From positions 1-50,181 of the IMG/VR virus record IMGVR_UViG_3300044980_000168: a DNA stretch of 50,181 nt; one strand, given 5' to 3'. Shown here piece after piece: positions 37,460 through 37,593 of the stretch (the first letter of the stretch is position 1; every line of letters starts with the position of its first letter). The stretch comes from a virus. The translations under genes and the position numbers were made by a program. Below the pieces are notes generated by a model. It did no database searches and was not told the origin of the DNA. It saw nothing but the letters and a program-made list of their open reading frames with translations.

Positions 37460-37593
37460 GTGTGAATGAAAGGACGATGCTTGGAAGGTCTTGCGACCGG
37501 CTTTTCCTCTACCACTGAGGTACATCCTGAACAAGCGATGATGGGAATCGAACCCACGACACAAAGGGATAACCAAACATCAACGACTCACAC
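37460..37593 (-). ncRNA. Y RNA-like RNA 3 with complete permuted tRNA module (YrlA type)
   Basis: Outer stem 37593-37586 with 37467-37460 (8 bp with one G-T pair), 5' CGT, inner stem of 10 bp without mismatch (37582-37573 with 37484-37475), then TTATC. The module has a T-arm (37557-37541, loop TTCGATT), a sealed acceptor stem (CATC/GATG with small loop), T8-A9, a canonical D-arm (CCTC, loop AGTGGTA, GAGG; 37520-37506), a short anticodon-like stem (CTTT/AAAG) and a 5-nt variable loop. A GCAA-capped hairpin follows. This is the geometry of tRNA opened at the anticodon, as in YrlA RNAs that bind Ro60 orthologues. Confidence 0.75.

Follow-up and report, generated by a model that had tools for sequence, protein, structure and literature searches.

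Y3, an RNA encoded on the minus strand of a viral genome directly downstream of a Ro60 gene, has the form of a bacterial Y RNA whose Ro60-binding stem encloses a circularly permuted tRNA module. Y3 very probably acts as a phage Y RNA that binds the adjacently encoded Ro60 protein and offers its permuted-tRNA elbow as a handle for tRNA-binding partners. A circularly permuted Y RNA resembling tRNA has been described before (PMC11472068), and Y3 belongs to this known design. Reports on bacterial Y RNAs have so far described mimicry of the D, T, and acceptor arms; our comparison of Ro60 loci indicates that most relatives of Y3 also mimic the anticodon arm, and that the same fold is built with its ends at two different places.

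Y3 and its Ro60 locus

The window analyzed here is the full 50,181 bp stretch of an IMG/VR virus record, which contains terminase and portal genes of the phage type. Positions 37821–39521 on its minus strand encode a 566-aa Ro60/Rsr protein with a full-length TROVE ring (1.4e-35) and a vWA domain (vWA_Ro60, 1e-63), and the product matches Deinococcus radiodurans Rsr (PDB 2nvo) with an E-value of 2.6e-120, covering residues 9–564. Four RNAs with a Ro60 stem, Y1 to Y4, lie directly downstream of this gene on the same strand, the gene ending ~50 nt before Y1. The Ro60-stem motif RRTCGTTR occurs nine times on the minus strand of the window and not once on the opposite strand; four of the nine fall within 400 nt, near the starts of Y1 to Y4 (37769, 37696, 37588, and 37377, in that order), and the other five are scattered. 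A promoter and terminator scan of the Y cluster returned nothing convincing. Directly downstream of the cluster, 36866–37219 (minus strand) holds a gene for a GroES-like co-chaperonin.

Y3 (37460–37593, minus strand, as are all of its parts) is matched by covariance model R1 and by the Rfam YrlA model, and its stems were read from the sequence. In the lower Ro60-binding stem, the 5′ strand GUGUGAG (37587–37593), which is followed by the conserved GUCGUUG, pairs with the 3′ strand UUCACAC (37460–37466), and the upper stem is formed by GAUGUUUGG (37573–37581) and CCAAGCAUC (37476–37484). The 5′ strand of the upper stem continues into GGUUAUC (37568–37574), a GGTTAYC element conserved in alignment A1 (see below), after which CUUU (of CCUUU; nt 40–43 in tRNA numbering) supplies the 3′ strand of an anticodon-like stem and leads into the 5-nt variable loop GUGUC (37558–37562; strand and loop together, 37558–37567). 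The T-arm GUGGG-UUCGAUU-CCCAU (37541–37557) comes next, then a sealed acceptor hairpin, CAUC-GCUUGUUCAG-GAUG, of 4 bp with a 10-nt loop (37523–37540), then U8-A9 with the D-arm CCUC-AGUGGUA-GAGG (37506–37522), then A26 with AAAG, the 5′ strand (nt 27–30) of the anticodon-like stem (37500–37505). Both the T-arm and the D-arm are covered by the R1 match as well as being readable in the sequence, the acceptor helix covaries in relatives, and the consensus pairs 27–28/42–43 likewise covary among relatives of Y3. In Y3 itself the anticodon-like stem is limited to 4 bp (AAAG/CUUU), the fifth pair being C-C. Between this stem and the upper stem sits a GNRA hairpin, GGUC-GCAA-GACC (37487–37498), with counterparts at the equivalent position in loci L003, L043, L052, L062, and L081. 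The earlier note on this DNA had listed the T-arm, the sealed acceptor hairpin, T8-A9, the D-arm, N26, the anticodon-like stem, and the 5-nt variable loop; all are present on the minus strand, and the GNRA hairpin is an addition to that list.

An adjacent Ro60/Rsr gene and a terminal stem with the conserved Ro60-binding motif place Y3 among bacterial Y RNAs, and a T-arm, sealed acceptor hairpin, and D-arm held between both strands of the Ro60 stem make its module YrlA-like. The earlier assignment to the known YrlA design is borne out by the adjacent gene with its TROVE and vWA domains and by the crystal structure of Salmonella YrlA, which superposes on tRNA by circular permutation (PMC11472068). 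Y3 shares with YrlA (Rfam RF02553; Salmonella, PDB 6CU1) the link to Ro60/Rsr, the order of T-arm, sealed acceptor hairpin, and D-arm, and a short open anticodon-like stem that runs into the Ro60 stem; it differs in the GNRA hairpin between the anticodon-like and upper stems, in its 4-bp acceptor, and in being phage-borne with three further Ro60-stem RNAs alongside. The Rfam YrlA model gives Y3 32.8 bits (E = 5.6e-5), short of the gathering cut-off of 69, and at 16 further Ro60 loci the Y RNAs likewise stay below this cut-off, from which it follows that the model is narrow.

The other RNAs of the cluster, all on the minus strand, differ in how much of the tRNA they carry. Y1 (37713–37773; fold z −2.27) is a Ro60 stem only, with no tRNA module. 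Y2 (37603–37702; fold z −3.54) has the Ro60 stem, a hairpin, a 4-bp T-arm, and then directly a short D-arm, and matches R1 weakly (16.4 bits, E = 0.0085); its T- and D-arms seem to be directly joined without an acceptor hairpin, as a minimal elbow. Y2 does not fit the split-anticodon-arm form described below. Y4 (37263–37381) combines the Ro60 stem with an anticodon-like hairpin (AUCU-CUCAACA-AGAU), a T-arm with a UGCAAAU loop, a GNRA-capped acceptor, and a degenerate D-arm, and its R1 match is also weak (11.6 bits, E = 0.0038 in an unfiltered 1-kb scan). Between Y3 and Y4, ARAGORN calls a tRNA-Met(CAT) at 37385–37455 (minus strand); this sequence has a D-arm hairpin of 5 bp closed by 3 nt and lacks both a proper D-loop and U8-A9, and the Rfam tRNA model finds no match there. 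This tRNA-like sequence could be a processing signal.

Comparative support for the permuted module

Ro60 loci were gathered from viral contigs, bacterial genomes, and phage records, and modules running from T-arm to D-arm were sought outside ARAGORN tRNAs; a second search, with the Ro60 of L081 as query, brought in few further loci. Sixty Ro60-locus RNAs were aligned (A1), and R1 was built from this alignment with the window left out. Standard pairs fill 98.0% of the cells at 17 pairs of A1, and the covariation score is 0.742, compared with 0.180 for shuffled sequences and 0.169 for the best slid-partner control. Searched against the 50-kb window, R1 returns Y3 at 56.3 bits (E = 8.8e-14; core 37494–37574). 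The suggestion that in Y3 the ends of a tRNA have been shifted to the anticodon is upheld, as many Ro60 genes have beside them RNAs with the same permuted order, conserved and strongly covarying.

Neither ARAGORN nor the Rfam tRNA model finds a tRNA at Y3. Across 12 whole genomes, the best R1 match away from any Ro60 gene scored 47.1 bits and is probably a set of tandem tRNAs, which are the main confounder for matches of this type; permuted forms scoring at least 73 bits occurred in three of these genomes, and there solely on Ro60 contigs.

A search of viral contigs by DNA patterns found no close relative of Y3, so the covariation bears on the pairs of the family and not on those of Y3 itself. 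Folding of the isolated sequence prefers another core (−40.1 kcal/mol at the minimum, as against −34.2 for the tRNA-like core, with an acceptor pair probability of ~0.05), and such folding was rejected as a way of proving the tRNA-like core. As the energy model alone does not favor this core, the support for Y3 is comparative and not thermodynamic. Caution is also called for by the acceptor and the anticodon-like stem, both of which are short at 4 bp.

A split anticodon arm in relatives of Y3

Of the non-redundant modules, 53 had enough sequence from GGTTAYC to the T-arm to be examined, and 36 of these carry an anticodon arm. In these 36 modules nt 27–28, which follow N26, pair with nt 42–43, a hairpin just 5′ of 42–43 provides 3 bp (29–31/39–41) and a 7-nt loop, and the variable loop has 5 nt, sometimes 4 or 6. 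The arm therefore amounts to a 5-bp anticodon stem that the Ro60 stem interrupts after nt 28 and before nt 29. When the D-side was dealt among sequences, there was a mean of 9.3 such arms and a maximum of 18 in 2000 trials, and shuffling the inner bases yielded a mean of 1.0 and a maximum of 5. Loop letters played no part in the selection of these modules, and the 7-nt loop has U33 in 32/36, a purine at position 37 in 33/36, and A38 in 29/36, while positions 34–36 hold 23 different triplets.

Many of the remaining modules, Y3 included, are open, such that 27–31 pair with 39–43 and continue directly into the Ro60 stem; a GNRA hairpin comes next in several of them, and the Rfam drawing of Salmonella YrlA likewise shows an open form. 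Mycobacteriophages have been reported to carry Y RNAs, in work cited in PMC12282133. The actinobacteriophage Y RNAs of TinyTim, Cashline, and prophiGD43A-5 resemble Y3 in being permuted tRNA modules near a phage Ro60-like gene, yet they have the split anticodon arm with its 7-nt loop, whereas Y3 is of the open type with a GNRA hairpin. In TinyTim, a phage of Mycobacterium smegmatis, the RNA has the sealed acceptor and an anticodon-type loop that reads AUUGCAA.

An acceptor-ended permutant at Ro60 loci

In L003, whose Ro60 is closest to that of the window, Y3-type parts stand in tRNA order. From the 5′ end these are an 8-nt acceptor strand, TA, the D-arm, A26, AAAGA, a GNRA hairpin, and the 3′ strand of the Ro60 stem; after a tetraloop come the 5′ strand of that stem, TCTTT, GGGTC, the T-arm, and the complementary acceptor strand. 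This opposite permutant, with paired acceptor ends and a capped Ro60 stem between nt 28 and 29, occurs at ~29 Ro60 loci, beside Ro60 genes of phages and of bacteria (for example L003 5992–6126, L005 6353–6476, L017 3810–3932, L078 3544–3670, L103 5616–5742, L118 6489–6617, and L140 2520–3250). Systematic scanning turned up 38 non-redundant candidates, of which 26 have no neighboring tRNA arm that might mislead the assignment; the tandem arrays of L047, L026, L131, and L134 have to be read with caution, as the two permutations are not always distinguishable there. The acceptor-ended RNAs (L003, L005, L017, L078, L103, and others) have the same arms, Ro60 stem, and anticodon-arm junction as Y3, and L003 has the GNRA hairpin and open anticodon stem as well, but they end at a 7–8 bp acceptor and their Ro60 stem is loop-capped.

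In an alignment of 24 opposite-permutant sequences (A2), 97.6% of the cells are paired, the covariation score is 0.703 compared with 0.199 in the control, and all eight acceptor pairs show changes on both sides. The Rfam tRNA model, which served as an independent yardstick, matches 10 opposite permutants end to end across the insertion at 42.7–53.4 bits with a cut-off of 29 (L003 5993–6126, 53.4 bits). R2, a covariance model of the opposite permutant, scores sequences not used in its building at 93.6 (L005), 99.5 (L094), 89.1 (L113), and 87.3 bits (L124), and finds no opposite permutant in the window. Among the best 150 R2 candidates per genome in the 12 genomes there were 11 full-length matches (97–113 bits), every one on a Ro60 contig a few kb from the gene, with ordinary tRNAs reaching at most 63.4 bits; because these 11 are largely R2 training sequences, absence elsewhere applies only among the best 150 per genome. 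The 21 opposite permutants with 5/5 anticodon-stem pairs have U33 in 20 and a purine at position 37 in 20.

On a FastTree tree of Ro60 proteins (93 rows), the sealed-acceptor and acceptor-ended forms cluster, yet ~10 switches between them are needed, with means of ~25–27 changes when group labels are shuffled; well-supported branches by themselves force several switches. The rows nearest the window (L003, L103, L005, and L006) are all acceptor-ended, in a part of the tree where support is weak. Since both permutants exist, a free acceptor end is not what all members need, and the occurrence of both permutations of one fold points to tRNA shape plus a Ro60 stem at the anticodon arm, and not an aminoacylation site, as the conserved entity. 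The two permutants thereby separate conserved from non-conserved features and narrow the possible functions, and as natural pairs they offer material for structural work. As far as we have checked, the common occurrence of a split anticodon arm with anticodon-loop letters is new, and the opposite permutant is seemingly undescribed, although earlier mention of either in Chen 2014, Wang 2018, or Sim and Wolin 2018 is possible.

Proposed role of Y3 and alternative explanations

We infer that Y3 is expressed, binds Ro60, and forms a tRNA elbow. The basal stem, which is seen in the sequence, would dock on the Ro60 ring, and the distal part, whose order and pairs are known by comparison, would fold into the L-shaped elbow of a circularly permuted tRNA in which the Ro60 stem takes the place of the anticodon loop and a loop closes the acceptor stem. 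By analogy with YrlA, the elbow may hold tRNA-binding partners next to Ro60, among them a nuclease such as PNPase and the enzymes TruB and DusA, which modify the T and D loops. In D. radiodurans a Y RNA tethers PNPase to Rsr (PMC7790460; PMC8058203), and a survey of jumbo phages described TROVE proteins as an RNA repair platform with a tRNA-like partner (PMC7824862). We take Y3 as a tether offering a tRNA elbow beside Ro60, probably for recruiting a nuclease or other tRNA-binding protein during infection. The D and T loops of YrlA are modified by DusA and TruB (PMC8394870), so a substrate for tRNA-modifying enzymes, as the earlier note suggested, would be the right expectation for Y3; it may also, as that note put forward, be a tRNA mimic that acts on the host. 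As a partial tRNA mimic, Y3 is also like the tRNA-like domain of tmRNA, which has T-loop modifications (PMC8394870); the two differ in that no SmpB or mRNA part is involved, and in linear order.

A broader reading, which we put forward tentatively, treats the Ro60-locus RNAs as a single fold: a complete tRNA from whose anticodon arm, at the junction of nt 28 and 29, the Ro60-binding stem arises. This fold would occur naturally in either circular permutation and would have changed from one to the other during evolution. The anticodon loop, with U33, R37, and any triplet, might then be a working part, for example as bait for an anticodon nuclease, or the acceptor-ended form might be processed or charged in a tRNA-like manner, and Y3 would be a derived open version.

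It is unlikely that the tRNA-like part of Y3 is mainly a decoy that baits host anticodon nucleases or other tRNA-cutting defenses while Ro60 stabilizes it. The phage setting would suit such a role, as would the variable triplets of the anticodon arm that most relatives have, and YrlA has been proposed as a possible anticodon nuclease inhibitor, but YrlA was itself uncut in that work (PMC7790460), Y3 has no anticodon loop, and the same forms occur on bacterial genome contigs with no clear phage context. A decoy role fits members with an anticodon loop better than it fits Y3. Slightly less probable again is that Y3 is simply a Ro60-stem RNA whose tRNA likeness is a structural buffer regulating Ro60 occupancy, with no tRNA-binding partner. 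Y1, which does without any tRNA module, and Y2, which does without the acceptor, are what such a buffer would allow; conservation of the T-loop and D-loop letters, and of all arms with covariation, speaks against it.

Permuted tRNA genes of algae and archaea have their halves in reversed order and mature into normal tRNAs. That Y3 is such a gene, as in red algae, with a transcript that is first circularized and yields a functional tRNA once its acceptor loop is cut open, is very improbable. The permutation logic is the same, the tRNA halves of Y3 are likewise reversed, and many relatives have an anticodon loop with U33 and R37; Y3, however, has no anticodon loop and no functional acceptor end, its 4-bp acceptor with a 10-nt loop standing where a 7-bp acceptor with CCA would be required and leaving no space for N73-CCA or an RNase P leader, and acceptors are closed by tetraloops in many relatives. 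A further point in favor of this reading is that in Salmonella rsr shares an operon with rtcB, which encodes an RNA ligase (PMC7790460). Least probable of all is that Y3 is the remains of two tandem tRNA genes, the T-arm of one and the D-arm of the next within a fortuitous stem: phage tRNA arrays do have the same arm order, reaching ~40 bits in R1, and an ARAGORN tRNA adjoins Y3, but we rejected such an artefact on the grounds that no ARAGORN tRNA lies within Y3, that the enclosing Ro60 stem carries a conserved motif, that the short acceptor and its loop leave no room for tRNA ends, and that Y3 outscores in R1 the best match away from Ro60 in the 12 genomes.

Annotation of RNAs at Ro60 loci

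Ro60-locus RNAs are overlooked or wrongly labeled by the YrlA model of Rfam and by ordinary tRNA annotation. The GenBank tRNA-Thr(tgt) of prophiGD43A-5 (L174 5357–5435; MW584167.1 26001–26079) overlaps a Y RNA module that scores 78.7 bits with R1, and this label is probably a mis-annotation. Short RNAs by Ro60 genes at L054 3661–3729 and L139 3653–3718 exceed the Rfam cut-off for the nematode sRNA ceN72-3_ceN74-2 and are probably stem-only Y RNAs. Ro60 phage contigs L052 (7433–7657, permuted) and L081 (2088–2531) carry tmRNA genes together with many tRNAs. The same Ro60 locus is found in a viral contig (L024) and in the genome of Bradyrhizobium sp. C9 (L109), and is therefore likely to belong to a prophage.
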